Below are positions 28,253 through 45,105 of a stretch of DNA of 48,108 bases, piece by piece. A model generated the notes under the pieces. It was not told where the DNA came from, did not search any database, and was given only the letters and a program-made list of their open reading frames with translations. Each line of letters opens with the position of its first letter. The stretch's first letter is position 1. The translations under genes and the position numbers were made by a program. Location: the IMG/VR virus record IMGVR_UViG_3300031972_003249, positions 1 to 48,108 of that record; one strand, given 5' to 3'. This DNA is from a virus.

Positions 28253-28304
28253 CCGCGCCGATGGTGTTTTTCTTTCATTTTGCACCATCGGCGCGGTTTA
28301 TTTT
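28253..28304 (+). terminator. Strong intrinsic terminator after the tape measure gene
   Basis: A perfect 14-bp stem (28253-28266 with 28283-28296, CCGCGCCGATGGTG / CACCATCGGCGCGG) is followed by TTTATTTT. It splits the tail module at the point where the repressor-BRO cassette is inserted. Confidence 0.88.
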
Positions 28305-28370
28305 GGAGGTCTGGGAATGGAGCATTCCATCCGAATTGATATGGTCGACCGTGTGACGCCGGTGGTTGCG

Positions 28371-28568: not shown

Positions 28569-28669
28569 AAGGATTTCTCACGCTGTGGTTGTGGTGGCGA
28601 TAGCGTGAGGGATGGTGAGGGGCCTGTCAATAAGTGATGGGTAAGGGTGTCCGCATTGTGGACACCCTC

Positions 28670-28894
28670 TCACTGCTTCTTGAGCCGAACGCCAGGGCCT
28701 TTCCCGTCGTCTTCTAGGAATGATATTCCGGCATTTTGATATGCGAATTGTAGGGCGGAAACTGTTGATTGGTTGGTTACTCCGCCGCGTTCGAAGCGGC
28801 GAATAGTATTGGGGCTAACTCCCGAGTTGTGGGCAGTTAGATCAAGGGTCCAATCGAGCGCAGCTCGTGCCATTCGTGACTGTTCAGGTTCCAT
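28670..28894 (-). CDS. HTH repressor of BRO cassette 1
   Basis: The 74-residue XRE-like protein starts at ATG 28894 (MEPEQSRMARAALDWTLDL) and has a helix-turn-helix (LTAHNSGVSPNTIRRFERGG) and the ending GISFLEDDGKGPGVRL typical of a large small-repressor family. It resembles the product of 43594-43839. The 17-bp palindrome TTGCGTAATTTACGCAA ends two bases before its start codon, so autorepression is likely. It diverges from the small protein and BRO genes. Confidence 0.82.
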   Translation of the reverse strand: MEPEQSRMARAALDWTLDLTAHNSGVSPNTIRRFERGGVTNQSTVSALQFAYQNAGISFLEDDGKGPGVRLKKQ

Positions 28895-28895
28895 G

Positions 28896-28965
28896 TTGCG
28901 TAATTTACGCAATTTTGCAGTTGACGGCAAAGCATAATATCAGTCATATTGCGCAAATTACGCAA
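28896..28965. promoter_or_regulatory. Divergent control region of BRO cassette 1: two 17-bp operators
   Basis: TTGCGTAATTTACGCAA (28896-28912) is a perfect palindrome, and TTGCGCAAATTACGCAA (28949-28965) differs by one symmetric position. A promoter TTGACG (28921-28926)-17 bp-TCATAT (28944-28949) reads right, with the second operator against its -10. Binding by the cassette repressor is inferred. Confidence 0.7.
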
Positions 28966-28978
28966 TATGGAGGGCGTT

Positions 28979-29275
28979 ATGTCAGTTAAATTCGATCCGC
29001 CGAAAGGCATCACGGAACTGGATGAGGTTTTTGATGGTCTCAAAACGGTCGGTGACCGCGATGAGGATAATGTCCTGTCGATCTGGCGGGAACATCAATT
29101 GCGGGTGATCCCGGCTGTTACGTCCGGTGAACTGGAAAAGAAATTCGATATTCTTGAAGATTGGGTTGGGCCCGGTAACAAGGGGCTGACCGAGGTTGAT
29201 TGCTTGCAGGTCTATGCGTGGGTTCGTTCGATCCGCAAAGACGCGGTTGCGATGCTGGAAGGGAAAAAGTCATGA
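28979..29275 (+). CDS. Cassette-conserved small protein, copy 1
   Basis: The 98-residue product starts MSVKFDPPKGITELD after GGAGGG and is highly similar over its whole length to the product of 43931-44227. It has no recognised family. Its stop overlaps the BRO gene start (ATGA), so the pair is translated together. Conservation of the pair in both cassettes suggests a joint function with the BRO protein. Confidence 0.75.
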   Translation: MSVKFDPPKGITELDEVFDGLKTVGDRDEDNVLSIWREHQLRVIPAVTSGELEKKFDILEDWVGPGNKGLTEVDCLQVYAWVRSIRKDAVAMLEGKKS

Positions 29276-30159
29276 CCCTGCCGGTATCATTTGATTTTGA
29301 AGGCCAGTCGGTCCGCACTGTCGATATTGATGGTGCAATCTGGTTTGTGTTGGTCGATGTCTGCACCGTGCTGGAAATCGGGAATCCGTCGCAGGCCGCT
29401 TCGCGGTTAGATGAGGATGAAAAGTCGACCCTCACTAATAATGAGGGTCGGGCAGGGAACGGGGCACAGTCTTTCACCATCATCAACGAAAGCGGTCTTT
29501 ATTCCCTGATCCTGACCAGCCGCAAGGAAGCGGCCAAACGGTTCAAGAAATGGGTGACTGCCGAAGTGCTGCCGGCGCTTCGCAAGCATGGCCATTATGA
29601 AATGCCGGGGATTGTCCCGGTTTCCAGTCGCAAGAATTTGCCGCCATCGGCAATCCCGCGATCGGAACGCCATTATGACCTGGCGCTCGTGCGCGAGGCG
29701 CGGGCGACTTTTGGCGAGGCCGGGGCGCGGTATGTCTGGGCCAATTCGCCAACGCTGCCCGATATGGCATCTATGACCGATCAGGAACGGCTTGACGATC
29801 TGGCGCGGATGCGGGCCGAGGATTGCTTGCGGTATTTGCTGCGCCATTCGATGGGGCGCGGTGTGCCGGTGTCGGAAATGATTGTTTTTGCGCAATACCG
29901 CGATGACGTGAAAATCGCGCTGGAAGAACGGGGGATCAAGGTGTCGCCAAGTCGCTATCGCGGCAAGGTGATACTGGCGTCCGATCATCCGTTTTTGAAC
30001 AAGGTTTTCGCGCCCACCGATTGGGCGGGAATTTATCAACGGGTTTTGAAAGACCTTCCGGGGTCGCATGTGACGCGCCATTCCCTGACTTTTGCCGATG
30101 AAGAAAGTCCGGGTGTGGTGGTGCCGCTTGTGATCGTCAACAATATCGGAGGGTTTTGA
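29272..30159 (+). CDS. BRO-N domain antirepressor-like protein, copy 1
   Basis: The 295-residue protein has an N-terminal BRO domain (FDFEGQSVRTVDIDGAIWFVLVDV ... NESGLYSLILTSRKEAAKRFKKWVTAEVLP; about 1-105), a Pro-rich linker and a conserved C-terminal domain. BRO-N proteins in phages often act as antirepressors or DNA-binding regulators. It is near-identical to copy 2 in the C-terminal two thirds but differs at about 42-68. The target is unknown. Confidence 0.85.
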   Translation: MTLPVSFDFEGQSVRTVDIDGAIWFVLVDVCTVLEIGNPSQAASRLDEDEKSTLTNNEGRAGNGAQSFTIINESGLYSLILTSRKEAAKRFKKWVTAEVLPALRKHGHYEMPGIVPVSSRKNLPPSAIPRSERHYDLALVREARATFGEAGARYVWANSPTLPDMASMTDQERLDDLARMRAEDCLRYLLRHSMGRGVPVSEMIVFAQYRDDVKIALEERGIKVSPSRYRGKVILASDHPFLNKVFAPTDWAGIYQRVLKDLPGSHVTRHSLTFADEESPGVVVPLVIVNNIGGF

Positions 30160-30168
30160 GGATGATGT

Positions 30169-31020
30169 ATGCTTTCAATGTCTTATACCGACAATGTCGA
30201 TCAGATCATTGCCAACCTGACCCGCCTTGAAAAAGAACAGGTCCCGTTTGCCTTGTCCAAGGCGATCAACCGCGTGACGTTCGAAGCGCGGGACGAGGTT
30301 CTTGCGAAGATGGATCGCAGGTTTACCATCCGCGAGAAATCGTTAAAAGCCAAGGGCGGCGGGCGTCGGGCCTTGTTCGTGAATGCCAGCAATAAAAAGC
30401 AATCTTCCATCCGGGCCGAAATCGGTACACCTTTCTGGTTCATGGAAGATCAGGAAGAGGGTGGTAGCCGTACTGGTAAATCCGGGCAGGGTGCTTGGAT
30501 TCCGGGATTGGGGGCGCGCACACGCAAATCCAAAGAAGGCAAGGTTGCGTCGCGATTTAAAAAGGCCAAAGTGCGCAAAATGATTGCGTCGACCGGTTCC
30601 TATCCGAAGGGGCGACGTTCTAAGAAGAATCCGAAAGCCTTCGCAAAGCAACAGCCGTTCATAGCAACGATGAAAAGTGGCAAGCGTGGGGTGTTTATTC
30701 GCCAGAAGCGAAACAGTCGGTTGCCGATATCATTGTTGTGGACGGTAACCAAATCGTTCCGCGTTGCGCCTCGTTGGCGGTTCCGCGAAATGATCGAAGG
30801 GCTTAGCGAGAAAAAGCTGGCGGCGTATTTCATTGCGGACATGCAGGAAGCATTGCGTACGTCCCGAAAGGGGCGAAAGCAAAGCCAGTATCTTGAGCAT
30901 CTGATCCGAAGCGAAAAGACGCCGCCAATGCCAAGTTTCGCGGGGCTTGGTGCAGGGTCGCTTTCGGGAAATACGCTTGATCAGTTAAGCCAGGTATCGC
31001 GCGGTTTACCGGGGATTTGA
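30169..31020 (+). CDS. Minor tail protein Z-like
   Basis: The 283-residue basic protein begins with a helical VPFALSKAINRVTFEARDEVL segment typical of phage minor tail protein Z family members. It has a very basic middle (about 100-180). The start at 30169 has GAGG seven bases upstream; an in-frame ATG at 30178 is possible. It resumes the tail module after the BRO cassette. Confidence 0.65.
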   Translation: MLSMSYTDNVDQIIANLTRLEKEQVPFALSKAINRVTFEARDEVLAKMDRRFTIREKSLKAKGGGRRALFVNASNKKQSSIRAEIGTPFWFMEDQEEGGSRTGKSGQGAWIPGLGARTRKSKEGKVASRFKKAKVRKMIASTGSYPKGRRSKKNPKAFAKQQPFIATMKSGKRGVFIRQKRNSRLPISLLWTVTKSFRVAPRWRFREMIEGLSEKKLAAYFIADMQEALRTSRKGRKQSQYLEHLIRSEKTPPMPSFAGLGAGSLSGNTLDQLSQVSRGLPGI

Positions 31021-31024
31021 AGTT

Positions 31025-32251
31025 ATGCCTTTTGAAGATGAAGTGCGTGATGGGCTCTGGCGCGGTGTGTCCATGATGGTCCGTTCGGTCCGTCTTTCTT
31101 CGGGGCGGCGTGGGCCGACGGTGGAGCGCCCGAATCGGGATGATGCAGATACGCAGGACCTTGGGCGTAAAGTTCGGAGATTTAATGTCGACTGCTTTGT
31201 TCTGACCATCGATGGTTTTGACGCGCGCGACCAATTGATTGCTGCGCTCGGAAAAGAAGGTCCGGGAACTTTCGTGGATCCGTTTGGCGGTCTGACTTCC
31301 GAGCGATGGGTAAGGGTCGCTGATTTTGACGTATCCAACAGTTTCGCGGCTGAAGGTATTGCTAATTTCTCTATCGTCTTTGAGGAAGTTGGCGAGAATG
31401 CGGAGCCGGGATTTACACCGGGCCGTGTTTCCAATGTCTATCAGCTTGGTGTGCAATCCTCTGCGCTGTCATTTGCAGCGAGTGCCGCCTTCGTCAACCG
31501 CTATATCACGGATGGCATGCCGGGATTTGTCCGCGAAGCCGGGGCGGAGGTTATCGGATCGCTGACCGATCAGGTTGGTGGTCAGCTTTTTACCGCTATC
31601 GGTGTCGATGCGTCGATGCAGGATGCAATCGACGGGATCGGTGCGGTTGGCCTTACGGCGATGACCGGTGGGGGTGTTGATATTGCAAGCGGAATATCGT
31701 CCGGCTTTGCGTTGCTTTCGTCCTCAGTTCCGAACGCGGCGGATGGGGTGAACGGTTTTCTTTCCCTATCGGCATTCGAGGTCGCAGGGGTGGATGTTCC
31801 GGTGTCGACCGCAACCCGACAGGTAGAGGCGGTCAATCGCACGGCGCTTGGTGCGCTGATCCGTCGAACGGCGATTTCGGCAGCGGCGGAGCTTCTGCCG
31901 AACTACACGTTCGTTTCATATGATCAGGCGGCTGAAATAACCGGCCAGTTTCTTGATGTCATCGACCGGGAAATGGATCGCGCGGGCGGGAATGTCGCCG
32001 GTGAAAGTGACGCCGGTGTGTTTTCCGCGTTGGCCTCGGTCCGAACGTCTGTGGTCGATTACACGCGCGAGGCTGGGGCGGGCAAGGCAAAGACAATAAC
32101 CGACATGCCTTGGCTGACCGAGCCATCGGTCGTTACGGCACATCGCCTGTATGGTGATGCGCGCCGTGCGTCTGAAATCGTTACGCGCAACGGTATTGCG
32201 CATCCGAACATGGTCCCGTCTTGGGCGCCGATTGAGGTTCTTGATGGTTGA
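31025..32251 (+). CDS. Mu gpN-like DNA circularisation/tail protein
   Basis: The 408-residue product has the gpN N-terminal domain (GRKVRRFNVDCFVLTIDGFDARDQLIAAL ... PGTFVDPFGG ... WVRVADFDVSNSF). In Mu, gpN is a baseplate or tail component that also appears to help circularise infecting DNA. It sits between the tail genes and gpP as in Mu. It overlaps the next gene by 8 bp. Confidence 0.85.
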   Translation: MPFEDEVRDGLWRGVSMMVRSVRLSSGRRGPTVERPNRDDADTQDLGRKVRRFNVDCFVLTIDGFDARDQLIAALGKEGPGTFVDPFGGLTSERWVRVADFDVSNSFAAEGIANFSIVFEEVGENAEPGFTPGRVSNVYQLGVQSSALSFAASAAFVNRYITDGMPGFVREAGAEVIGSLTDQVGGQLFTAIGVDASMQDAIDGIGAVGLTAMTGGGVDIASGISSGFALLSSSVPNAADGVNGFLSLSAFEVAGVDVPVSTATRQVEAVNRTALGALIRRTAISAAAELLPNYTFVSYDQAAEITGQFLDVIDREMDRAGGNVAGESDAGVFSALASVRTSVVDYTREAGAGKAKTITDMPWLTEPSVVTAHRLYGDARRASEIVTRNGIAHPNMVPSWAPIEVLDG

Positions 32252-33338
32252 TGCACCTGAAATCGAGCTGGATGGCAAGATTTACGACGACTGGCAAAAA
32301 TGCTCGTTCAATTTTTCGATCAGCGATATTGCCAATTCCTTTGCATTGACTACACCGGATTTCACACCGGACCACGGCGAAGATTTGGCCGTAAAGGCCC
32401 GGTTTGGTGATCACGAATTGCTGACTGGCTGGCTTGAGGAAATCGACAATTCGACCGTGCCTGATCAAGAAGGGACCCGGCTGAGCGGGCGATCAAAGGC
32501 GGGTGATCTGGTCGATTGTTCGGCGATCGTACCGGGTGGGGAATATCATAACCTTTCGCTGCTTGAGGCTTGTGCCGATCTTTGCAAGCCATTTGGTATC
32601 GCGGTGTCGGCGCTTGTTGATGTTGGCGATCGGTTTGATCGGATCAAGATCGAACAAGGCGAGGAAGTCAGTCAGGTGATTGACCGGATATGCCGCGAGC
32701 GTGGCCTGATGGCTTGGTCGGTGGGGTCTGGCGATATCGTTCTTGGTCGTCCGGGTTTCGCGCGGGCTCAAACGGATCTTCGGTACCGATATACGGGGTC
32801 CGGTCAGCTTCGAAGCGATAACAACATTATCGAGTTGTCGGCCAAACTGACCAAAGCCAACCGGCATTCGAAGCTGATCATGCGGTCGCAGGGGCAAACC
32901 AGTGATGATGATTTTGGTATTGCCGCCGCCCAGTCCGAGGCCGCGGCGGTCGATGACGCGGTTCGTCGGTATCGGCCCAAGGTCCTGACAAGCGATGGGG
33001 CCGGGTCGTCCGATCAGCTTCGTCAGCGTGTTAATTGGGAAATGGCACGCCGGATCGGTAAATCAACCGCCATCACGTATCAATGCGAAGGTTGGCAACA
33101 GGTTCCGGGCGGGGACATCTGGCGCCCAGGTTTGCTGGTTGCCGTCGAAGATCAGAAAAACAAAATCGCCGAGGAAATGCTGATCGTTTCGGTGGGGCTG
33201 ACGCTTGATGAAGACAAGGGCGGTTATCGCACATCCCTGTCGGTTGAGCCGCCCGCTGCTTGGGTGCCAAAGCCGAACTTTGAAAAGGTTGACGGGGATG
33301 CGCAATATGCGGCACTTCGCCGCGCGGTAAGGGGTTAA
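32244..33338 (+). CDS. Baseplate hub protein (Mu gpP / gpD-like)
   Basis: The 364-residue product has the gp27-like hub pattern (LDGKIYDDWQKCSFNFSIS, GDLVDCSAIV, ICRERGLMAWSVGSGDIVLGRPG). It should form the trimeric hub linking tail tube and spike. ATG 32244 lies within the end of the gpN gene. The upstream in-frame extension is a shadow. Confidence 0.85.
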   Translation: MVDAPEIELDGKIYDDWQKCSFNFSISDIANSFALTTPDFTPDHGEDLAVKARFGDHELLTGWLEEIDNSTVPDQEGTRLSGRSKAGDLVDCSAIVPGGEYHNLSLLEACADLCKPFGIAVSALVDVGDRFDRIKIEQGEEVSQVIDRICRERGLMAWSVGSGDIVLGRPGFARAQTDLRYRYTGSGQLRSDNNIIELSAKLTKANRHSKLIMRSQGQTSDDDFGIAAAQSEAAAVDDAVRRYRPKVLTSDGAGSSDQLRQRVNWEMARRIGKSTAITYQCEGWQQVPGGDIWRPGLLVAVEDQKNKIAEEMLIVSVGLTLDEDKGGYRTSLSVEPPAAWVPKPNFEKVDGDAQYAALRRAVRG

Positions 33339-33342
33339 TTGC

Positions 33343-33975
33343 ATGTCTGATGGCCTGTTTCAGCGGCTTTCGCGTCGCGTGGAAAACATGCTCTTTCGGG
33401 CGGTTATTCGGTATGCCAAGCAGACCAGCCGGGGCGGGGCGATCATTGCACAGGTCGCGGGGCGATCCGGTGACACGCTTGATGATGTGGTTGTTTTCGA
33501 GGGTTATGGGTTTAGCCATCGGCCCCTGCCTGCTGATGCGAATGGGCAGGGTGCGGAAACGATCGTATTGCAGCTAGAGCGCAATATGGCTGTCGCCCTG
33601 CCGCCAATGGATCGTCGTCACCGGTCGAAGTCTGGTGTCGTCGAGCCGGGTGAGGTCGGTCTTTATGATGATCAGGGGCAGCGCATAACCCTTAAAAGAG
33701 GTCGTAAAATCATAATTGATGGGGCTGATTTCCTTGATGTGTTGATCGCGACAAAGGTGCTGGTTGATTGCCCGGATGTTGAATTCACCGGAAATGTGAA
33801 AATTGGTGGCAACCTAGAAGTTGCCGGATCAACCGTCGTTGGTGGCGACATCACCGATCAGGCCGCATCCGGTAATGCGCGAACCGTCGCGGGTATGCGC
33901 GAGGTTTATAACGATCACAACCATCCTGAAAACGACAATAACGGTCCAACCGACCCGCCTAATCAGGGGATGTAA
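33343..33975 (+). CDS. Baseplate spike protein (Mu gp45-like, gpV)
   Basis: The 210-residue protein has an OB-fold N-terminal part (HRPLPADANGQGAETIVL), a beta-helical repeat stretch (VEFTGNVKIGGNLEVAGSTVVGG) and a C-terminal H-N-H motif (YNDHNHPEN) that binds iron at the spike tip in P2/Mu relatives. It forms the membrane-piercing needle. Confidence 0.9.
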   Translation: MSDGLFQRLSRRVENMLFRAVIRYAKQTSRGGAIIAQVAGRSGDTLDDVVVFEGYGFSHRPLPADANGQGAETIVLQLERNMAVALPPMDRRHRSKSGVVEPGEVGLYDDQGQRITLKRGRKIIIDGADFLDVLIATKVLVDCPDVEFTGNVKIGGNLEVAGSTVVGGDITDQAASGNARTVAGMREVYNDHNHPENDNNGPTDPPNQGM

Positions 33976-33977
33976 CT

Positions 33978-34469
33978 ATGTCCAATCTGCATACCGACAT
34001 GGCGATCCGTTATGACACGGATCGGCGCCGGTTCGACCTGGCTTTGTTAACAGGTGAAACGCCGACCATTCAAACCGATCACGGTTTGGAAACCGCCGTC
34101 AACGCGGCCCTCTTTACCGATGGTCGCGCCCGCGAAGATGATGTTTTGCCAGACGGGACAGATCGTCGTGGTTTCTGGGGCGAGGCTTGGCCGTCCGTCG
34201 GTGGCTTCAAATTAGGGTCGCGCCTGTGGCTTCTGGATCGCGAAATCATCACCAGTCAGACGGTTGCGCGTGTTCGGGAATATGGCACTGAGGCATTGCA
34301 GTTTTTAACGAAAATCGGTGTCGCGCAGTCCGCCGTGTTTGATGCCGTTCGGGATCGTAATGCGGGCCGGTGGGTGATCTCTGGCCATGCGGTAATCAAG
34401 CGGCCCACGGGGCAGATTTTTGAGCGGCGCTATGCTGATATTTGGCAGTGGATGGATCGCAATTCATGA
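33978..34469 (+). CDS. Baseplate wedge protein (Mu gp46-like)
   Basis: The 163-residue product has the gp46/gpW25-like pattern: an early LLTGETPTIQTDHGLETAVNAALFTDGRA segment (quoted in part: ETAVNAALFTDGRA) and GGFKLGSRLWLLDRE. It belongs to the wedge region and overlaps the next gene (ATGA). Confidence 0.85.
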   Translation: MSNLHTDMAIRYDTDRRRFDLALLTGETPTIQTDHGLETAVNAALFTDGRAREDDVLPDGTDRRGFWGEAWPSVGGFKLGSRLWLLDREIITSQTVARVREYGTEALQFLTKIGVAQSAVFDAVRDRNAGRWVISGHAVIKRPTGQIFERRYADIWQWMDRNS

Positions 34470-35560
34470 ACAAGTTGACCGGTTTCACAGTCCCGACCTT
34501 TGAGGCCCTTCGCGGGCAATCCGGGTCACATTACGAGGCGCGTCTGGGGCAGGGCGTCACGCTCGGACAGGGGCCGGTTGCCGTCATGCCATACATCGAT
34601 GGCATGCTGGCGAACGGCGCTTATGGCTACCTTGATCATATTGCATCTCAGACGATGGTTCTCTGGGCGACGGGTGAAAATCTGGATGGTCACGGTTTTA
34701 CATTTGACGTGAAACGTATTCAGGCATCTCGCGCGACGGGCAATGTCATCTTTAGTGGAGTTGCCGGGGCGGGTATTGATGCCAATCAGGTGCTTCGGGA
34801 TTCGGCTGGTGTCGAGTTCAAGGTGATTGATGGTGTGGTTCTGGATGAAGCCGGTCAGGCTGTTGCGAATGTGAAAGCTTCCGTTCCGGGTGCTAACGGA
34901 AACCTTCTTGAAGGGGCTTCCCTTACCCTCGTTAACCCGGTTGATGGTGTTGATCCGGTTGCGACCGTTGCTGCTGGTGGTTTTGCGGGAGGGGCGGATA
35001 AGGAAAAGGACGGGCGCCCGGGTGTTATCGAGCACTATCGGGAAAGAATTCTAAAAGAAATTTCCATGCCGCCGCATGGCGGTGCCGGTGGCGATTATGA
35101 AAAATGGGCCAAGGAAGTTCCCGGCGTTACCCGTGTTTGGGTTGCGCGCCGCGAAATGGGCATGGGGACGGTCACTGTTCGCTTCATGATGGATGTTCTG
35201 CGGGCGTCCGATGGTGGTATTCCAACGGCGGCTGATGTTGCGCTGGTTCAATCCTATATTGATGCGCGCCGTCCAACCACTGCCGATGTTTATGTTGTGG
35301 CGCCTATTCCGAAGTCGCTGGCGATTACTATCATGGGGCTTGATCCGGATACGCCTGCGGTTCGCAGTTCAATAACCGCCGAGCTTCTTGACATGATCTT
35401 CCGTCGTGGTCAGCCCGGGGTGACTTTAAGTCGAAGCTGGATCACTGAAGCAATTGCGATTTCTGCAGGTGAGGGGCGGCACAAGGTTACTGCTCCTGCC
35501 GACGATGTGGCACATGCGATCGGCGAAATCCCGGTCCTTGGGGTGGTCAGTTATGATTGA
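34466..35560 (+). CDS. Baseplate J protein (Mu gp47-like)
   Basis: The 364-residue product contains the baseplate J signature (ILKEISMPPHGGAGGDYEKWA ... VTRVWVARREMGMGTVTV) preceded by Gly-rich strands. It forms the baseplate wedge that transmits contraction. ATG 34466 overlaps the gp46 stop. Confidence 0.88.
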   Translation: MNKLTGFTVPTFEALRGQSGSHYEARLGQGVTLGQGPVAVMPYIDGMLANGAYGYLDHIASQTMVLWATGENLDGHGFTFDVKRIQASRATGNVIFSGVAGAGIDANQVLRDSAGVEFKVIDGVVLDEAGQAVANVKASVPGANGNLLEGASLTLVNPVDGVDPVATVAAGGFAGGADKEKDGRPGVIEHYRERILKEISMPPHGGAGGDYEKWAKEVPGVTRVWVARREMGMGTVTVRFMMDVLRASDGGIPTAADVALVQSYIDARRPTTADVYVVAPIPKSLAITIMGLDPDTPAVRSSITAELLDMIFRRGQPGVTLSRSWITEAIAISAGEGRHKVTAPADDVAHAIGEIPVLGVVSYD

Positions 35561-36206
35561 TGACAGGCTTGAGGCTTATGCCGATATTGTCGCATCGGCC
35601 ATGCCCCCGGGTGCAGCTTGGCAGGGGTTTCGCGATTACGATGGGGTTGGCCGGGATTTCCTGCGTGCCAAGTGTTCGACATGGGTTGAAGTTGATCTGG
35701 CTGCTGACCGCTTGGTCATTGAAAGCCAGCCTGCGCGCGCCATCGAAATGCTGGCCGATCACGAAACTCAGGTCGGCCTGCCCGATTGTTGCTTCCAAAC
35801 ATCTGGCCTGCCGATCGAGGATCGCCGTGCTGCGGTTCTGACACGCTATCGGGCGCGTGGTGGTCAAAGCCCGGGCTACTTCATCGGGCTTGCCGAAACT
35901 CTCGGATATCAGACGGCAATTGTCGAATATCGTCCGTTCATGGTTGGCATAAGCCAGGTGGGCGGTGCCAATACATCGGGAAACAAAGACAGCGTGCGCT
36001 ATGACATGCTGGGCGCGACTGCTGATATGCGGGCGTGGTGGCGTATGCGCGTGCTGGGGCCGCGGGTGACGTGGTTCCGGGTCGGTGTCTCGACATTGGG
36101 TCAGGACCCGCTTGCGCGAATATCGCGCGCAGAAGATTTGGAATGTCTCTTGGGTCGGTACATGCCGGCCCATTCTTTTTTGACCATGTCTTATGAAGGT
36201 GAGTGA
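35553..36206 (+). CDS. Tail protein (Mu gp48-like, DUF2313)
   Basis: The 217-residue product starts at ATG 35553 within the end of the J gene. It has the gp48/YmfQ pattern (LPPGAAW-like MPPGAAWQGF, LPDCCF, RRAAVLTRYRARGGQSPGYF) and C-terminal CLLGRYMPAHS. In Mu-like phages it joins the baseplate to the fibres. Confidence 0.85.
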   Translation: MIDDRLEAYADIVASAMPPGAAWQGFRDYDGVGRDFLRAKCSTWVEVDLAADRLVIESQPARAIEMLADHETQVGLPDCCFQTSGLPIEDRRAAVLTRYRARGGQSPGYFIGLAETLGYQTAIVEYRPFMVGISQVGGANTSGNKDSVRYDMLGATADMRAWWRMRVLGPRVTWFRVGVSTLGQDPLARISRAEDLECLLGRYMPAHSFLTMSYEGE

Positions 36207-36805
36207 TGCAGTATCAGCCGCCAGTTAATGGCAATCTTGCCGATCCCAATCGTCCTTACGTCAACCCGGACCCGTCAAACAGTATAGAGGGTTCTGTTCC
36301 GCCTGCGGAGGCGATTGAGCATCCGATGCGCGAGATTGTTGAGGTGATTACCTATTTCCTCGGCACCGACGCAAACCCGCTACCGGCGACCGAGGCTGAT
36401 CTTCAGCAATTGCGCAAGGCGATCCAGCAGGCGGTTACGGATGGCACAAGCGATGCCTTGCGTCGCACTGTCTCAGCGACCCTTGGTGCTGGCTTCTGGA
36501 CTATCCGCGTTCCGGCAACTCTTGCTGCAGGTGAAGTGTCGTTCAATCCGGCCCTTGGTAACCGCTTCACCCTGACCGCGACCGAGGCCCTGACCATCAC
36601 GGCACCCGACCCGATGCCTGCCGGTGGTTCGGCGCGGTTGGAACTGACGATGGATGCTGTTGGAAATCACGGGATTGCTTGGGGGCCGGAATTCCGCATC
36701 AACAACGGTGCGATCAACAGCGAGCCGAACGCGGTCAACCTGATCCATATGGAATTCAGTGGTGCCGTGATTGACGTGCATATCACCCAGCGGGCGGAGG
36801 CGTAA
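36206..36805 (+). CDS. Tail fibre/collar protein
   Basis: The 199-residue product begins with a Pro/Asn-rich segment (MQYQPPVNGNLADPNRPYV) and ends with beta strands of the form F-T-L-T-A-T-E-A-L-T-I-T-A-P. This resembles short tail-fibre or baseplate-distal proteins. ATG 36206 shares TGATG with the previous gene. Host receptor contact is inferred from position. Confidence 0.65.
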   Translation: MQYQPPVNGNLADPNRPYVNPDPSNSIEGSVPPAEAIEHPMREIVEVITYFLGTDANPLPATEADLQQLRKAIQQAVTDGTSDALRRTVSATLGAGFWTIRVPATLAAGEVSFNPALGNRFTLTATEALTITAPDPMPAGGSARLELTMDAVGNHGIAWGPEFRINNGAINSEPNAVNLIHMEFSGAVIDVHITQRAEA

Positions 36806-36808
36806 TCA

Positions 36809-39121: not shown

Positions 39122-39135
39122 TCAGGAGACAGACC

Positions 39136-39819
39136 ATGACTGCGCTTTATGCGATTTGTGACGATCAGTGGGCTTTGGTCAAAACGGCCAGCAGCCCGAT
39201 GGGCCTCAAGGCAGAAACCGGCAAAACCTACAGCAATGCCGCCTTGGCATCGGTCGAGGATTTGCGGGACAACTTCGTTCTGGTGATTGATCAGGGCACC
39301 AAGCCCGATCAGGAATGGCAGACGGTGATCGGCAACCCGACCGTTGTGATTGATGGTGATCCAGAAGCCCCGGAAACGATGACCGCCACACTGCAATATT
39401 CCACCCAGCCGATCAGCCTTGAAGCGGCGAAGGCGAAGCTGAAAGAGCGGGCCAAGAAGTGCAAATTTGAACGCATGGATGCTGGTGTCGAGTTCGAGCT
39501 TGGCGGGACGACATACGTTGCCCAGACAGACAGCGAAAGCCGGGCTTTGCTGATGGCCGTTTACTTCAATGCTCTTGCGGGTGGCCTGCCTGACGGACGC
39601 AATTGGCGGTTCCGCGACAATTCCTATCCCCATCTAACCAGCGCGGAAATCATCGCGTTGGGCGAAGCTGTCAACGTGATGGTCGCCGCCTGTTTCGACC
39701 AGCAGGCTGCACATGATGCGGCGATTGATGCGCTGCCCGATCTGGATGCCTGCAAGGCATATAATTGTGCGACCGGGTATCCGGCGGAGCCTGATATTAC
39801 TGTCGTTCCTGAAATCTAG
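39136..39819 (+). CDS. Tail fibre-associated protein, DUF4376-like C-terminus
   Basis: The 227-residue product has an N-terminal small domain and a C-terminal region (KFERMDAGVEFELGGTTYVAQTDSESR) that resembles DUF4376, often found in fibre assembly proteins. It follows the fibre gene and precedes a terminator, as fibre chaperones do. Start ATG 39136 follows AGGAGA. Confidence 0.7.
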   Translation: MTALYAICDDQWALVKTASSPMGLKAETGKTYSNAALASVEDLRDNFVLVIDQGTKPDQEWQTVIGNPTVVIDGDPEAPETMTATLQYSTQPISLEAAKAKLKERAKKCKFERMDAGVEFELGGTTYVAQTDSESRALLMAVYFNALAGGLPDGRNWRFRDNSYPHLTSAEIIALGEAVNVMVAACFDQQAAHDAAIDALPDLDACKAYNCATGYPAEPDITVVPEI

Positions 39820-39844
39820 TTGCCTCAATCACGCCCGTTTCAGT

Positions 39845-39869
39845 CAGTCGCCAATCGGCGGCTTTTTTT
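39845..39869 (+). terminator. Intrinsic terminator ending the tail module
   Basis: AGTCGCC and GGCGGCT form a 7-bp stem (one G-T pair) around AATC, followed by seven T residues to 39869. Confidence 0.85.
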
Positions 39870-39895
39870 ATGCCTGAATGGTAGGGGGTGCCGGC

Positions 39896-40225
39896 ATGGA
39901 CAAGCCGCCGCACGAGTTTGAGCCGCAATGGCTCGTGGCGTTAAAGCTTTGGTGGCCAGTAGCGGGGCTGACGATCTACGCCCGCATTCTTTGGCACCGG
40001 AACCTTGTTGCAAAAGGGTTTCGACGTTTTTGGGGGCGAGAGCTTTTGTGGGAGCTGGTCACCGCGGGGTTCTGTTTCGCCATTTCAATGGGGATCGCCG
40101 ATTACTTCGATCTCAGCATAACCGGCGCTTGTGCGGTCGGCACCTTCATCGGGTGGCTCGGTCCAAAGGGGCTGCAAGCCTTTCTGTTGGGCGCAATCAA
40201 ATCAGGAAATTCGAAAGGGGTCTGA
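39896..40225 (+). CDS. Holin (lambda/LydA-like family)
   Basis: The 109-residue protein has an N-terminal DKPPHEFEPQWL segment and three likely membrane segments (about 16-32, 53-70 and 76-98), matching class I phage holins. It should form lethal membrane lesions that release the lysis enzyme or trigger it. The start at 39896 follows AGGGGGT. It heads the lysis cluster. Confidence 0.75.
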   Translation: MDKPPHEFEPQWLVALKLWWPVAGLTIYARILWHRNLVAKGFRRFWGRELLWELVTAGFCFAISMGIADYFDLSITGACAVGTFIGWLGPKGLQAFLLGAIKSGNSKGV

Positions 40226-40226
40226 C

Positions 40227-40466
40227 ATGGATCAGATTGCATATGTGGCGCCGTCCATCGCGGCGGCGTCGGTTGTTCAACTCGTTCTGGCGCTGATTGC
40301 GTTTGTCATCGTGCGCTGGGTTCTCAAATGGCTCGACCGGATCATCGATTTTGATTTCAAAGGGTGGATTTCCAATGCGAATGACAATGCTGTGTCTAAT
40401 TATCTTGGTTACCGGATTCTGGCCGTCTGCATCTTGGTCGGGCTTATTGTTTCCGGATCGCTTTGA
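40227..40466 (+). CDS. Second small membrane protein of lysis cluster
   Basis: The 78-residue product has two hydrophobic helices (about 14-34 and 60-76) separated by a charged loop (KWLDRIIDFDFKGW). It may be an antiholin or a second holin. It overlaps the transglycosylase gene by 92 bp in another frame. Confidence 0.65.
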   Translation: MDQIAYVAPSIAAASVVQLVLALIAFVIVRWVLKWLDRIIDFDFKGWISNANDNAVSNYLGYRILAVCILVGLIVSGSL

Positions 40467-40947
40467 TCATGAATTCCGCCAGCACGCGGGGCGTTACCTG
40501 CCCGGGCTTGATTGGCGTCTCCTGAAAGCCCAGTGCTATCAGGAAAGTCTTTTGCGCCCGGATGCGGTTTCGCCCGTGGGTGCGCAGGGGCTTTGTCAAT
40601 TCATGCCCGGGACGTGGCGACAGGTTTCCGGGCAGATCGATCTGCCGCCCAATGCATCGGCCTTCATGCCGCAGCTCTCGATCCGGGCTGCGGCGTTTTA
40701 TATGGCGGGGCTTCGCGGTCAGTGGTCGGCAAAGCGGCCTGAATGGGATCGGCATAGCCTGGCGCTGGCCAGTTACAATGCCGGTCTGGGGCATCTTCTT
40801 TCGGCGCAGCGGGCATGTGGCGGTCCGTCGCTTTATCCGGAAATCATCGCATGTCTGCCCGATATCACCGGGCGGCATTCGCGTGAAACCATCACCTATG
40901 TTGACCGCATTTGGGGCTGGTACCGGCAAATGATCGGGGGTGGGTGA
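40375..40947 (+). CDS. Secreted lytic transglycosylase (SLT-type endolysin)
   Basis: The 190-residue product starts at ATG 40375 after AGGGTGG with a hydrophobic signal or SAR-type segment (MTMLCLIILVTGFW). The catalytic domain has Glu57 in CYQESLLRPDAVSPVGA and the QGLCQFMPGTW motif of family 1 lysozyme-like transglycosylases, plus ASYNAGLGH. It cleaves peptidoglycan during lysis. Export by Sec would make holin control partly independent of a pore. Confidence 0.88.
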   Translation: MRMTMLCLIILVTGFWPSASWSGLLFPDRFDHEFRQHAGRYLPGLDWRLLKAQCYQESLLRPDAVSPVGAQGLCQFMPGTWRQVSGQIDLPPNASAFMPQLSIRAAAFYMAGLRGQWSAKRPEWDRHSLALASYNAGLGHLLSAQRACGGPSLYPEIIACLPDITGRHSRETITYVDRIWGWYRQMIGGG

Positions 40948-41411
40948 TGCGAAATATCTTCAAGCTTGTGGCGGGTGCCTTCACCGGCGGCGGCATGATG
41001 TGGTGGTTCGTCGTGGGCGGGGTGGGATTGCTGTTTGCTGCGGTCAGTGTGCAGACCATTCGCCTTGATGGTGCGCAGGCGCGGATCGAGGCGGAGCAAA
41101 TGCGGTCGGTGCGATGGCGTGATGCCAGTATCGAAAACATGGAAACGATCAATCGGTTGCGGTTGGCCGGTGCCCGGATTGAGCGGGCATTGGCCGACGA
41201 ACGTGTCCGGCGATCCGGGGCGGAAGCCCGGTATCGCACTTTGATGGAGGGGGTGAATGATGCGCCGAATGATGGTTGTGTCGGGCCTGCTGTGGGTGGG
41301 CTTTTTGACAGGTTGCGGGACGACGCCAGAGCCGATCCGGACAACGGAATATATCTCGGCAACGGTACCGGGGGCCTTAACCGCCTGCAAGCCCGTTCCG
41401 GCGATCCCTGA
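40947..41411 (+). CDS. i-spanin-like protein (Rz)
   Basis: The 154-residue product has a single N-terminal membrane segment (about 18-36) followed by a charged coiled coil (RIEAEQMRSVRWRDASIENME ...), as in Rz inner-membrane spanins. It overlaps the endolysin stop, and the o-spanin gene starts within it in another frame. It would bridge to the outer-membrane partner to fuse membranes. Confidence 0.8.
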   Translation: MRNIFKLVAGAFTGGGMMWWFVVGGVGLLFAAVSVQTIRLDGAQARIEAEQMRSVRWRDASIENMETINRLRLAGARIERALADERVRRSGAEARYRTLMEGVNDAPNDGCVGPAVGGLFDRLRDDARADPDNGIYLGNGTGGLNRLQARSGDP

Positions 41412-41538
41412 TCCGCCGGTTACCGATAAAAAGGTTGGCCGGTATATCGTCGATCTGATCGATGCGCATGATGATTGCTATGGCAAAAACCGCAAGATCG
41501 GCGCGTTGTTCGGCCCGGATATACATTCCGGCCCGTAA
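41257..41538 (+). CDS. o-spanin lipoprotein (Rz1-like), embedded
   Basis: The 93-residue product has a lipoprotein signal ending L-T-G-C20, then a Pro-rich mature part (PVPAIPDPPV), typical of Rz1. It starts inside the i-spanin gene in a different frame after GGAGGGGG and extends past its end. The embedded or overlapping arrangement is usual for spanins. Confidence 0.85.
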   Translation: MMRRMMVVSGLLWVGFLTGCGTTPEPIRTTEYISATVPGALTACKPVPAIPDPPVTDKKVGRYIVDLIDAHDDCYGKNRKIGALFGPDIHSGP

Positions 41539-41562
41539 ATCGTGAATATGTTCCTATTTTAA

Positions 41563-41599
41563 GAACATATATTGAACATATTGGGCGGTCTCCTATATC
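41563..41599 (+). promoter_or_regulatory. LexA (SOS) box overlapping a promoter
   Basis: GAAC-N7-GAAC (41563-41577) is the exact alphaproteobacterial LexA consensus (reverse complement GTTC-N7-GTTC). It contains a -35-like TTGAAC (41572-41577) followed after 16 bp by TATATC (41594-41599). An additional GTTC lies at 41550-41553. The genes downstream include an SOS-associated SRAP protein. Confidence 0.78.
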
Positions 41600-41628
41600 C
41601 TGTGCATCCAGAATGGAGGCCCTTGGAT

Positions 41629-42015
41629 ATGAGCGATCGCCCTTTTTTGTCTTGGGTTGAACAGTTTCAACAGTTTGCGACTGATTTCGAAATCTATCTG
41701 GCCGAGTTTCCCGAGAATGGCTGGTATCGGCGGTATCTGGATGATTACCGCCGCCTGTTTGATGCGATCTTGGCAGGTGAAAATTTCCATCCGCAGCGCC
41801 AGCCATATCAGTCATTCCATGCGGCTGTCTTGCTGATGCTTGATGGTCGCAAGAAGCTGACGCCGCTGCAGCGGCGGTTGAAAAAGGGGTTGCTGGTCCG
41901 TTGGCAAAGATTACATAATTCCGCAGGGATACGTGGCCGCGAAGGATTGGACAAAGGTGGCCCGAGCTTTTGGAGCGGATGCAAGGCATGTGCGGGCGTT
42001 ACTCACACGAAATGA
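41629..42015 (+). CDS. Hypothetical protein of the LexA-boxed operon
   Basis: The 128-residue product starts at ATG 41629 after GGAGG. It is rich in aromatic and charged residues (FLSWVEQFQQFATDFEIYLAE) with a basic C-terminus. No family recognised. It overlaps the SRAP gene by 28 bp and is the first gene under the putative SOS promoter, so it is likely induced by DNA damage. Confidence 0.65.
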   Translation: MSDRPFLSWVEQFQQFATDFEIYLAEFPENGWYRRYLDDYRRLFDAILAGENFHPQRQPYQSFHAAVLLMLDGRKKLTPLQRRLKKGLLVRWQRLHNSAGIRGREGLDKGGPSFWSGCKACAGVTHTK

Positions 42016-42728
42016 CTTGGGCCGAGATATACGCGCATTCGGGTTTGCTGTTCCCGTCTCCTGAAAAGGACCCGGAACCGAACTATAACACCGCTCCGAC
42101 CCATTATTGCCCGGTGGTGCTTTCCGATGGTTCGAATATATGGGGTGAATATGCCTTTTGGGGTTTTATCCCGCCGTGGTTTGACAAGGACCTGTCTGAT
42201 AAAAAGTTCAATACCATCAATGCCCGGATCGAGGATGTGACGCAAAAGGCGACATATCGCGGATCGATCCAGCGTCATCGCTGTCTTGTCCCGGCGACCT
42301 GCTTTTACGAATGGCAAACGGCGGGACGCGCGGAGGGCGAAAAGGGTAAAAAGCAGGCTTATGCGATCGGTGTTGCTGGCAAGGATGACGGGGTTTCGTC
42401 CTTCATGATGGCCGGTGTCTGGTCTCATTGGGTCGGCACGCTCAAGGCCGAGCGGTTTGAAGCCTATACCTTTGCTTTGCTGACCCGCGAAGCTGGACCC
42501 AAGATGGGTGAAATCCACCATCGCGAACCTGCGATCCTGATCGATGATGAAATCGGTACCTGGCTTAGTGCCCCGCTTGATGAAGCCCTTTCAAAACTGA
42601 CGGTTCCATTGCCGTCGCAGCTTTTGCGGTTTCACAAGGTTTCAGACCGTGTTGGTTCCGTCCGGAACAATGACGCGGATCTGATGCGACCGGTTGATGA
42701 CCGTCCGCAACAAGGAAGCCTGTTCTAG
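41988..42728 (+). CDS. SRAP-family protein (HMCES/YedK-like)
   Basis: The 246-residue protein begins MCGRYS with Cys2, which becomes N-terminal after Met removal and links to abasic sites in single-stranded DNA. Other conserved motifs are NARIED, HRCLVPATCFYEW and HHREPAIL (catalytic His). SRAP proteins protect abasic sites during replication and are SOS-associated. The upstream LexA box agrees. Start at 41988 is chosen to expose Cys2. Confidence 0.92.
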   Translation: MCGRYSHEMTWAEIYAHSGLLFPSPEKDPEPNYNTAPTHYCPVVLSDGSNIWGEYAFWGFIPPWFDKDLSDKKFNTINARIEDVTQKATYRGSIQRHRCLVPATCFYEWQTAGRAEGEKGKKQAYAIGVAGKDDGVSSFMMAGVWSHWVGTLKAERFEAYTFALLTREAGPKMGEIHHREPAILIDDEIGTWLSAPLDEALSKLTVPLPSQLLRFHKVSDRVGSVRNNDADLMRPVDDRPQQGSLF

Positions 42729-42857
42729 GCTTCCTATTCCCAATCACGCCCAATAGATACCCTCGTTACGTGCGGGGGTCGGGTATTTCTGTTATTTAGT
42801 ATTGTTGAATATGTAGGGGTTCCTCGCTACCATTATGCCTTTAAGTGGGAGGAGCGG

Positions 42858-43049
42858 GTGCCATATTTCAACTCAACGGCAATTAGCCGAGCCGAGTACG
42901 ATGAGCCGACGCAGGTGCTGCAATTGTGGTTTGTCGATAGTGGTGGGCCGTATAGCTACTACCGGGTCCCGAAATGGATATTTGACGGGCTGTGTCAGGC
43001 TCGTTCAAAAGGTGGGTACTACAACCGGTATATTCGCGATAAATTCTGA
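42858..43049 (+). CDS. KTSC domain protein
   Basis: The 63-residue product fits the KTSC domain, a small fold named after lysyl-tRNA synthetase C-terminal-like sequences: STAISRAEYDEPTQVLQLWF, Y-S-Y-Y-R-V-P, ARSKGGYYNRYIRDKF. The GTG start follows GGGAGGAGC. Nucleic-acid binding has been suggested for the family. Its role in the phage is unknown. Confidence 0.8.
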   Translation: MPYFNSTAISRAEYDEPTQVLQLWFVDSGGPYSYYRVPKWIFDGLCQARSKGGYYNRYIRDKF

Positions 43050-43205
43050 CCTGTGGTTGCTCTAAGGCACCTTGAAAAACAAAGGCCACGCAAGGGCTTG
43101 TAATCGCCTCTATCAACGTGGCCTGCCGTGGGTACGGTCTTAACGCCCGATGCTTGCGCAGCGCGGGTACGTGTTTCATGTAACAACTTGTCTTGTTAAA
43201 GTCAA
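43050..43205. other. Intergenic hairpin region between convergent genes
   Basis: AGGCCACG (43083-43090) pairs with CGTGGCCT (43117-43124) around a 26-base loop, with no T-tract. Nothing else gene-like is seen between the KTSC gene and the end of the PemK-like gene. Confidence 0.4.
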
Positions 43206-43604
43206 CTAGAGCCCAAAACTAAACGCGCAGGCTTCTCTGATTTTCTTTAGAAGATCAGCATCTAATTCATTGTTATTGTATATTCTTTTGCCATCCAGAG
43301 CTTTCCCGGTTCTGATCATATCCAGTCGGCTGAAGCTGGCGACTGTGATCATGTCGCACTTTGCCCACATCTCTGTTGCAGTCCATCTTCCGCCAAGCGG
43401 ATCGATTTCAATCTTCACGTGGCATGCGGTTTGTAGATTGGGAGGGGTGGTACTCAAAGGAACTACTGTGCACAGTCCCGGTCCCTGGCGCTTTCGCGGT
43501 GAGATCACGACGACAGGGCGACGTTTTATCATTTCAGGGGCTTCATAGCCCCGATAGTCACAAGTAAGAAACCTGCCGGGTCGCGGATGAAATCTAATTG
43601 GCAT
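43206..43604 (-). CDS. PemK/MazF-like toxin-family protein
   Basis: The 132-residue protein has a MazF/PemK-like beta fold: early DYRGYEAPEMIKRRPVVVIS, a VVPLSTTPP strand and a helical end. MazF relatives are mRNA interferases. Its ATG lies 11 bp inside the end of the cassette-2 repressor gene, so the repressor probably acts as its partner or autoregulator. The usual MazE/PemI antitoxin is not seen. Confidence 0.75.
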   Translation of the reverse strand: MPIRFHPRPGRFLTCDYRGYEAPEMIKRRPVVVISPRKRQGPGLCTVVPLSTTPPNLQTACHVKIEIDPLGGRWTATEMWAKCDMITVASFSRLDMIRTGKALDGKRIYNNNELDADLLKKIREACAFSFGL

Positions 43605-43839
43605 CGGGCACTCGTTTACGGAGCCGCACGCCCGGGCCTTCGCCGTTCTCGGCGATGAAGATTACTCCGGCATTTTCCAAAGCGCGGGTTATTTTATCGA
43701 GCGTTGTGGCGTAACCGCTGGTGCTGCTGTTTTCGAATCTGGTGATAGTCATTGCGGAAACCCCGGCGATTTTTGCTAGGTCTCTGACGCCCAGTCCGAG
43801 TGCGGTTCGCGCCATCTTGCATTGCACTGGTGTTATCAC
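43594..43839 (-). CDS. HTH repressor of BRO cassette 2
   Basis: The 81-residue XRE-like protein (V/M-I-T-P-V-Q-C-K-M-A-R-T-A-L-G) has an HTH (LAKIAGVSAMTITRFENSS) and the ending VIFIAENGEGPGVRLRKR, and resembles the cassette-1 repressor. The GTG at 43839 is preferred because an ATG at 43860 lies inside the operator repeats; that alternative remains open. It is followed by the PemK-like gene. Confidence 0.75.
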   Translation of the reverse strand: MITPVQCKMARTALGLGVRDLAKIAGVSAMTITRFENSSTSGYATTLDKITRALENAGVIFIAENGEGPGVRLRKRVPDAN

Positions 43840-43847
43840 TGTAATCA

Positions 43848-43895
43848 AACCTGTTGACATGGTAAACATTCGGACTTAACCTGTTCACAGAGTAA
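43848..43895. promoter_or_regulatory. Control region of BRO cassette 2: 18-bp direct repeats
   Basis: AACCTGTTGACATGGTAA (43848-43865) and AACCTGTTCACAGAGTAA (43878-43895) match at 15 of 18 positions and are 30 bp apart, so they could lie on one face of the DNA. They differ from the TTGCGTAA-type palindromes of cassette 1, which implies a different binding specificity. Confidence 0.6.
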
Positions 43896-43930
43896 TCAAG
43901 TTTGATGTTCTGGACAACAGGTGAATTGCA

Positions 43931-44227
43931 ATGTCAGTTAAATTCGAACCGCCGAAAGGCATTACGGAATTGGATGATGTTTTTGATGTTCTCAAGTTGG
44001 TCGGTGACCGGGATGAGGATAGTCATCTCTCGGCTTGGCGCGAGGATCAGTTGCGGGTGATCCCGGCTGTGACGTCCGGCGAGCTGGAAAAGAAATTCGA
44101 CATACTGGAAAGCTGGGTCAGTCCCGGTTGTAATGGGTTGCATGAGCTGGATTGCTTGCAGGTCCTTGCGTGGGTTCGTTCCATCCGCAAAGACGCGGTC
44201 ACAATGCTGGAAGGGGCAAAGTCATGA
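43931..44227 (+). CDS. Cassette-conserved small protein, copy 2
   Basis: The 98-residue product is a close copy of that at 28979-29275 (same MSVKFxPPKGITELD start, same WVRSIRKDAV end) with scattered substitutions. It overlaps the BRO gene start by 4 bp. No family recognised. Retention in both cassettes supports a shared function with the BRO protein. Confidence 0.75.
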   Translation: MSVKFEPPKGITELDDVFDVLKLVGDRDEDSHLSAWREDQLRVIPAVTSGELEKKFDILESWVSPGCNGLHELDCLQVLAWVRSIRKDAVTMLEGAKS

Positions 44228-45105
44228 CCCTGCCGGTATCATTCGATTTTGAAGGTCAGTCGGTTCGTACCTTTGATAGGGACGGGGTGATCTGGTTTGT
44301 GTTGGTTGATGTTTGCAAGGTTTTGGAGATTGCCAATTCAAGAGATGCTTCGGCGCGGTTGGATGATGATGAAAAAGATACCGTCGTTATTACCGACGGT
44401 ATTCCGGGAAATCCTACAAAGACAATCATCAACGAAAGCGGCCTCTATTCACTGATACTGACCAGCCGCAAGGAAGCGGCCAAACGGTTCAAGAAATGGG
44501 TGACTGCGGAGGTGCTGCCGTCGCTTCGCAAGCATGGTCATTATGAAATGCCCGGTTCGTTGCCGGTCACCAGTCGCCGGAATTTGCCGCCCTCGGCAGT
44601 CCCGCGATCTGAACGGCACTATGATCTGGCGCTCGTGCGCGAGGCGCGGGCGACTTACGGCGAAGCCGGGGCGCGATATGTTTGGGCCAATTCGCCAACC
44701 TTGCCCGATATGTCCTGTATGAGTGAACAGGATCGGCTTGATGATCTAGCCCGGATGCGGGCCGAGGATTGTTTGCGGTATTTGTTGCGCCATTCAATGG
44801 GGCGCGGGGTGCCGGTATCGGAGATGATCGTTTTTGCGCAATACCGCGATGACGTGAAAATCGCGCTTGAGGAGCGGGGGATCAAGGTTTCCCCGAGCCG
44901 CTATCGGGGTAAGGTAGTGCTGGCGTCCGATCATCCGTTTCTCAATCGGGTTTATGCCGCGACCGATTGGGCGGGAATTTATCAGCGGATTTTGAAAGAC
45001 CTTCCGGGGTCACATGTGACGCGCCATTCCCTGACGTTCGGTGATGAAGAAAGTCCGGGCGTGGTGGTGCCACTCGTGATCGTTAACAATATCGGCGGGT
45101 TTTAA
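44224..45105 (+). CDS. BRO-N domain antirepressor-like protein, copy 2
   Basis: The 293-residue protein matches copy 1 closely except at about residues 38-67, where ANSRDASARLDDDEKDTVVI replaces the copy-1 sequence. The rest of the BRO domain (NESGLYSLILTSRKEAAKRF) and the C-terminal domain (about 120-293) are strongly conserved. The pattern suggests one scaffold with two specificities. Confidence 0.85.
   Translation: MTLPVSFDFEGQSVRTFDRDGVIWFVLVDVCKVLEIANSRDASARLDDDEKDTVVITDGIPGNPTKTIINESGLYSLILTSRKEAAKRFKKWVTAEVLPSLRKHGHYEMPGSLPVTSRRNLPPSAVPRSERHYDLALVREARATYGEAGARYVWANSPTLPDMSCMSEQDRLDDLARMRAEDCLRYLLRHSMGRGVPVSEMIVFAQYRDDVKIALEERGIKVSPSRYRGKVVLASDHPFLNRVYAATDWAGIYQRILKDLPGSHVTRHSLTFGDEESPGVVVPLVIVNNIGGF

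Follow-up and report, generated by a model that had tools for sequence, protein, structure and literature searches.

In phage P22, the secondary immunity region immI sits within the structural gene block (PMC8022706), and its antirepressor, Ant, is dispensable for growth, lysogeny and induction (PMC3121763); the role of this antirepressor region has been debated for decades. The action of antirepressors on non-cognate repressors is established (PMC3121763). Here we describe two repressor/small protein/BRO cassettes in IMG/VR virus record IMGVR_UViG_3300031972_003249, the entirety of which (48108 bases, the window) was analyzed. The window is a prophage of a marine bacterium, and its closest relatives with a known host are Thalassospira contigs. 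We propose, with a probability of roughly 0.68, that both cassettes are secondary-immunity (anti-immunity) modules operating in the manner of P22 immI, functionally equivalent to mnt/arc/ant but assembled from an unrelated repressor and small proteins.

Cassette A (28670-30159) and cassette B (43594-45105) share one gene order, in which a helix-turn-helix (HTH) repressor gene is divergent from an operon for a 98-amino-acid (aa) protein and a BRO protein. The repressors of the two cassettes are 40% identical, the small proteins 83% and the BRO proteins 86%, and in both cassettes the small gene overlaps the BRO gene at an ATGA. The twin cassettes, shared gene order and protein similarity claimed by the original prediction were thus recovered, with the following features.

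28670..28894, minus strand: RepA, 74-aa HTH_3/XRE repressor of type 1, ATG start (Pfam HTH_3, 4.8e-05)
28896..28912: predicted type-1 operator O1, TTGCGTAATTTACGCAA, 17-bp palindrome
28921..28950, plus strand: promoter-like element for the small and BRO genes, TTGACG, 18 nt, CATATT, between both type-1 operators (consensus match only)
28949..28965: predicted type-1 operator O2, TTGCGCAAATTACGCAA, 17-bp palindrome
28979..29275, plus strand: small protein A, 98 aa, encoded first in the BRO operon, its stop overlapping the BRO start
29272..30159, plus strand: BRO A, predicted antirepressor, Bro-N domain and C-terminal domain (Pfam Bro-N, 4.2e-24; PHROG anti-repressor Ant, 1e-43)
29377..29475, plus strand: variable segment of BRO A, residues 36-68, second HTH helix and beta-hairpin
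43206..43604, minus strand: PemK/MazF-like toxin gene (Pfam PemK_toxin, 4e-11)
43594..43839, minus strand: RepB, HTH repressor of type 2, GTG start preferred
43848..43859, plus strand: predicted type-2 operator repeat, AACCTGTTGACA
43878..43889, plus strand: predicted type-2 operator repeat, AACCTGTTCACA
about 43910..43923, minus strand: third, inverted type-2 repeat, CACCTGTTGTCCAG on the minus strand
43931..44227, plus strand: small protein B, 98 aa
44224..45105, plus strand: BRO B, predicted antirepressor (Pfam Bro-N, 2.5e-22; PHROG anti-repressor Ant, 3.3e-42)
44329..44421, plus strand: variable segment of BRO B, residues 36-66

The GTG start of RepB is preferred because a start at 43869 would place the first operator within the gene. 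For comparison, searches of viral and genomic contigs (designated by L numbers) provided 14 cassettes that were well resolved and compared closely; one is a near-duplicate of B and several are metagenomic with no known host. RepA homologues occupy the same place in all related cassettes. Neither Pfam nor PHROG gave a meaningful family match for the small protein, and its homologues occur in most cassettes, including one with a P22-Ant effector. A scan for the promoter-like element returned 2 where 1.6 were expected by chance; a TTGAC element is present at the corresponding place in related cassettes. An assembly artefact was considered and rejected, because L085 and L070 agree with the window at about 100% on either side of cassette A, and cassette B has the same surroundings in L066/L067. 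Contigs L085, L070, L004 and L011 break inside the BRO gene, which fits an assembler stopping at a near-identical second copy.

All operators reported here are predictions from sequence. Those of cassette A are unrelated to those of cassette B. The 17-bp palindromes of type 1 have 0.08 matches expected by chance in the window, and a type-1 site with the same 53-bp spacing is found in L071. Exact copies of AACCTGTTSACA occur in the window only at 43848-43859 and 43878-43889. The operators had been predicted to differ, with two 17-bp palindromes in A and 18-bp direct repeats in B; this is the case, except that the core of the B repeats is 12 bp and their third, inverted copy had been overlooked. 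Six repressor-operator types were distinguished among the 14 related cassettes.

Type 1, operator TTGCGTAATTTACGCAA: cassette A and L071, spacing 53 bp
Type 2, operator AACCTGTTSACA: cassette B, L066 and L074
Type 3, operator GTACCANNTGAT...TTGACCA: L004, L073, L075 and L314
Type 4, operator TTGTGNANTTTGCACAA and variants: L069, L072 and L006, spacing 53 bp
Type 5, operator AAATAGGCATTATGCCTAT: L107/L077, spacing 52 bp
Type 6, operator TTCAACGANNATNGTTNA: L003, spacing 46 bp

In types 1 and 3-6, paired operators of unrelated sequence lie 46-53 bp apart with a TTGAC element in between. Pairwise scans revealed a repressor-operator block that is swapped as a unit, from the conserved repressor 3' end to the start of the small gene, with a BRO side of high identity (A versus L073, L074 versus L107, and L314 versus L107). 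These comparisons support the view that repressor and operators change together as a matched, exchangeable block, so that the correspondence first suggested for the window holds in its relatives as well. Since a phage with two cassettes has a different repressor type in each, as seen in two phages, neither repressor is expected to control the other cassette of the same phage.

The Bro-N domains of BRO A and BRO B scored 85.4 and 79.8 bits, compared to the Pfam gathering cut-off of 25.6, which places both in PF02498. Nucleotide identity between the two genes was 83% before the variable segment, 58% within it, 93% after it and 86% in the C-terminus; the corresponding values for A and the BRO gene of L073 were 94%, 53%, 94% and 91%. 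The earlier claim that the BRO proteins differ only in a 25-30 residue segment was close to the mark in that the difference is concentrated at residues ∼36-68 (∼33 residues), but ∼9% of the C-terminal residues differ too. In AlphaFold2 models (pLDDT 77 in both; pTM 0.44 for the full length and 0.63 for the N-domain), the segment forms the second HTH helix (39-45) and a beta-hairpin (51-71) whose tip is of low confidence; these models are consistent with its exposure at the surface. In a comparison of 66 Bro-N domains, the most variable positions were those of the segment (mean entropy 2.44 bits at 36-45 and 52-68, versus 0.53-0.62 bits at 46-51 and 69-109), and its variability is therefore a property of the Bro-N family. 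In L066, BRO residues about 138-272 compared to BRO B form a tract of 73-91% nucleotide identity inside cassettes that are otherwise 98-100% identical; this tract of the C-terminal domain appears to be a separate exchange.

The effector slot appears to hold antirepressors of two kinds, because four loci carry a P22_AR_N domain in the place of BRO. In L298 (6662-8136), from a Thalassospira genome, the gene that follows a type-3 repressor, operator and small protein encodes a P22_AR_N (P22 Ant-type) protein (E=1.1e-37) rather than BRO. L212, L230 and L234 pair the same repressor family with this domain, and the L230 repressor, whose recognition helix is that of RepB (AGVSAMTITRFEN), is accompanied by CTGTTGAC repeats and faces a P22-Ant-type gene. 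Type-3 and type-2-like repressors can thus also precede a P22-Ant-type protein without a BRO domain, and repressor type therefore does not fix the effector. We predict an antirepressor function for BRO because of its PHROG anti-repressor Ant and Pfam Bro-N matches and because the same slot can hold P22_AR_N.

The case for an immI-like module starts from the anatomy of the cassettes, their matched operator types, modular exchange, insertion at an otherwise empty site and membership of an antirepressor family, whereas we infer repression, antirepression, target and timing from P22 immI (PMC8022706) and from work on antirepressors (PMC3121763). In the lysogen, the short HTH repressor would be made, bind the paired operators around the divergent promoter and keep the small-BRO operon off. 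If the repressor were missing or overcome, for example on entry of the phage into a cell without repressor, the BRO protein would be made and would inactivate prophage repressors, either the phage's own CI or those of other prophages. Repressor and operators would form an exchangeable block that sets the specificity of the cassette, and the antirepressor would be an exchangeable effector with a DNA- or target-contacting segment that varies independently. Cargo genes transcribed along with the repressor (a PemK-like gene in B; elsewhere HIRAN or TerB-like genes or additional repressors) would be expressed in the lysogen.

Several points weigh against this scheme. The models searched detected no homology to Mnt or Arc, the repressors being HTH_3/XRE proteins and the small protein belonging to no family. 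The CI of the phage carries an S24 peptidase domain and may need no antirepressor. As to what relieves repression, no LexA box (GTTCN7GTTC) is present in the cassette promoters, the nearest being at 2953 and 41563, with a degenerate site still possible. Finally, Bro-N resembles DNA-binding domains, so BRO could act on DNA and not on a repressor.

This last point leads to the alternative that survives best, in which BRO is a DNA-binding transcription regulator instead of a repressor inhibitor, and its variable segment recognises differing DNA sites, whether in the phage's own genome or in those of competitors. The position of the variable residues in the second HTH helix and beta-hairpin would suit such a role, as would the naming of the Bro-N network as 'domain-swapping DNA-interactive' (PMC10111431). 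A sequence search retrieved no solved Bro-N structure; the nearest solved folds were a granulovirus Orf22 domain, the DNA-binding motif of Dachshund and Ski and, weakly, Mbp1, but all of these matches are weak (best E 1.2e-3, TM about 0.57). The PHROG annotation and the replacement of BRO by P22-Ant-type proteins indicate antirepression; yet Ant-type domains belong to the same network, and the two ideas are therefore compatible. We regard a DNA-binding regulator in place of an antirepressor as unlikely.

A further alternative, which was that of the original prediction, envisages parallel switches in which repressor, operator and BRO segment have co-evolved and each BRO protein is specific to the repressor of its own cassette. 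It draws on the copies in the window and in Thalassospira sp. MCCC 1A01428, which are near-identical except for the repressor-operator block and the BRO segment. Across 13 non-duplicate cassettes, however, distances between repressor HTHs and between BRO segments were uncorrelated (Mantel r=-0.15, p=0.93; partial on BRO flanks -0.12, p=0.87), and 2/11 same-type pairs shared a segment class (p=0.67), the classes being assigned by eye and the Mantel test independent of them. L075 and L314 have identical repressors and different BRO segments, L314 and L107 have near-identical segments and different repressors, and a P22-Ant-type effector can stand under the same repressor types. Linkage of the BRO segment to operator or repressor type was accordingly rejected, and specificity of this kind is very improbable. 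Instead, the repressor-operator block and the BRO contact segment appear to be exchanged independently.

The remainder of the cassette behaves differently. Over the last 321 nt of the two BRO genes, 313 positions agree in MCCC 1A01428 and 281 in the window, whereas 235 and 224 positions agree between the two phages. The MCCC 1A01428 prophage (L004/L011 and L003) is thus a second phage with copies that are near-identical outside the repressor-operator block and BRO segment, and the rest of the cassette appears to be homogenised between the two copies within a phage. This within-phage pattern indicates that both parts differ between copies, not that block and segment match each other. The cassette family would therefore show which parts of an antirepressor region are pressed to change: the repressor-operator block and the antirepressor contact segment change independently, and the remainder is homogenised.

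The PemK-like gene of cassette B overlaps the end of repB by 11 bp, as it does in L066/L067, and is probably co-transcribed with repB. This overlap and weak matches of RepB to HTH antitoxins would suit an addiction or cargo module, in which RepB is the antitoxin of the PemK-like toxin and the BRO operon is secondary, but we consider this account very improbable, as RepA and most related repressors have no adjacent toxin, the L074 repressor (87% identical) has no PemK match in its flank, and in other cassettes that place is taken by HIRAN genes, TerB-like genes or additional repressors. The accessory genes found past the repressor encode HIRAN-domain proteins in two cassettes and related 260-aa proteins, some with weak TerB matches, in four.

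L071:8720-9340, L314:4666-5319 and L072:8556-9338: accessory genes beyond the repressor
L075:8536-9318, L107:1387-2169 and L298:5810-6592: accessory genes beyond the repressor

On the other side of cassette B, an SDH-type ClpP-like serine proteinase gene (45408-46277, minus strand) adjoins it and is also found beside the cassette in L066/L067.

Cassettes were found at two positions. Position A, after the tape-measure gene, is filled in the window, L073/L064, L004 and L069, and position B in the window, L066/L067 and L003. L003 and L004 are from one genome, that of MCCC 1A01428, and the start of the L003 contig (L011) carries a BRO gene end that fits the missing half of the position-A copy; from these contig ends, this prophage very probably also has both cassettes. 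L066 has a cassette at B only, no second BRO gene was found in the L073 record, and L284 and L285 lack BRO genes altogether. Position A is empty in L284, L285 and L286, where the tape-measure gene is 96-99.6% identical to that of the window and the next tail gene follows after 14 nt. The window departs from these relatives from the tape-measure stop to about 660 nt within the next tail gene, so the exchanged DNA extends past cassette A on the right. L003 (position B) and L069 (position A) have a common left flank of ∼680 bp at 73% identity, which supports transfer of the cassette and its neighbour between the two positions. The empty sites, the combinations of filled positions and this shared flank support the earlier suggestion of a cassette that moves as a unit, through gain, loss and relocation; as to the suggestion that the first copy interrupts a tail module after a terminator, a terminator-like hairpin does follow the tape-measure gene. 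By eye, with no dedicated repeat search run, the flanks of the 14 cassettes showed no common terminal repeat (transposon-like ends), and the element that they share is the repressor 3' end; homologous exchange at conserved coding ends is therefore a better explanation than transposon-like ends. L064 has the same repressor and BRO as L073, but a short stretch is deleted in frame from its small-protein gene (2373-2636).

28242..30828 (right edge approximate): DNA different from the empty-site relatives, comprising cassette A, hairpins, a flanking small open reading frame (ORF) and the first ∼660 nt of the next tail gene
28253..28296, plus strand: terminator-like hairpin between the tape-measure gene and cassette A (fold, about -34 kcal/mol)
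28644..28668: second hairpin, past the 3' end of repA (fold)

The first hairpin was also found in L073, and the empty site is without it. Given its position after the tape-measure gene and a gap of only 9 nt from BRO A to the next annotated tail ORF, the tail genes may also be transcribed from the cassette A promoter. A 65-aa ORF with paired CxxC motifs and weak zinc-ribbon family matches (28371-28568, minus strand) lies in the stretch separating the tape-measure gene from cassette A and overlaps a plus-strand ORF (28317-28637).

One relative of the window carries a repressor array facing its cassette.

L003:8921-9601 (Thalassospira sp. MCCC 1A01428): operon of three HTH repressors, each of another type, opposite one small-BRO operon

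The stop of the first gene overlaps the start of the second, and the third begins a few nucleotides on. R1 belongs to type 6, the type of this locus; R2 shares 70% identity with RepA (type 1), from which it differs at two recognition-helix positions; and R3 shares 82% identity with the L107 repressor (type 5) and has its recognition-helix sequence (VNRNTITKFEAGGD). The operators in the L003 locus (20.9 kb) are of type 6 only, fitting only R1; no type-1 or type-5 operator was found there, and R3 matches the operators of cassettes in other phages. The only other tandem among 188 distinct repressors, in L212, likewise faces an antirepressor gene, giving 2 arrays among about 22 antirepressor cassettes versus 0 among 163 other repressors (p about 0.014, post hoc), an enrichment that is suggestive only. 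A looser pair in L281, with a 343-bp gap and a weak second hit, was left out of this count. As possible targets of the extra repressors, other prophages of MCCC 1A01428 were sought, and strong matches in the genome search were confined to the four repressors that this prophage carries. A tentative explanation, to which we would give somewhat less than even odds, is that temperate phages collect the repressors of competitors' antirepressor cassettes and express them in the lysogen, such that an incoming phage could not switch on its antirepressor and induce the resident prophage. If true, this would be a stackable, sequence-specific immunity to foreign antirepressors, with the MCCC 1A01428 array as its first example, and resident prophages would be predicted to disarm the antirepressors of newcomers.

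Elsewhere, the window has a structural and tail gene block that includes the tape-measure protein and baseplate hub, as well as these features.

446-522: tRNA-Arg
613-1638: integrase
5208..5942, minus strand: prophage repressor with S24 peptidase (CI/LexA-like), which the BRO proteins are presumed to target
6039: Cro-like gene

At the right end of the record (47507-48108, minus strand), an HTH protein and a HigB-like toxin form a probable toxin-antitoxin pair; this HTH protein is also found at the right end of L300.

The cassettes resemble P22 immI (mnt/arc-ant) in having a divergent repressor, a small first gene and a predicted antirepressor second, and in being secondary to the main immunity region. 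The variable region in the late structural block of P22 has its counterpart in cassette A, between tape-measure and tail genes, and cassettes in unrelated phage backbones are likewise embedded among structural genes. Cassette B, which follows the lysis region, shares only a location outside the main immunity region, with CI at 5208-5942. Some cassettes of this repressor family also hold a P22_AR_N antirepressor (L298, L212). Mnt is a ribbon-helix-helix repressor, whereas the repressors here are XRE/HTH_3 proteins accompanied by a small protein without a family; the effectors in the window are of Bro-N and not P22 Ant type, there are two cassettes per phage, and one relative has three stacked repressors.

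The trans-acting antirepressors of Gifsy/Fels phages (Lemire 2011, PMC3121763) are likewise encoded outside the main immunity region, and FsoA is under the control of a phage repressor; action on prophage repressors, including non-cognate ones, is what we predict for BRO. Those antirepressors are small and mostly LexA-controlled, whereas here a ∼295-aa Bro-N protein has a dedicated local repressor and no LexA-like site at the cassettes. In the transcription factor-small ORF (TF-smORF) prophage induction modules (Silpe 2023, PMC10432266), a divergent DNA-binding protein and small gene also feed the main phage switch, and the DNA-recognition helix sets specificity. In those modules, the small gene is switched on by the transcription factor and its product directly inactivates CI, whereas here the regulator resembles a repressor and the last gene of the operon encodes a Bro-N protein. 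The BRO proteins are clear members of the Bro-N network (PF02498; phages, satellites and insect viruses), in which domain swapping and variable segments are general; they differ in that the domain is fused to a C-terminal domain with weak PHROG matches and lies within a defined repressor/small/BRO cassette.

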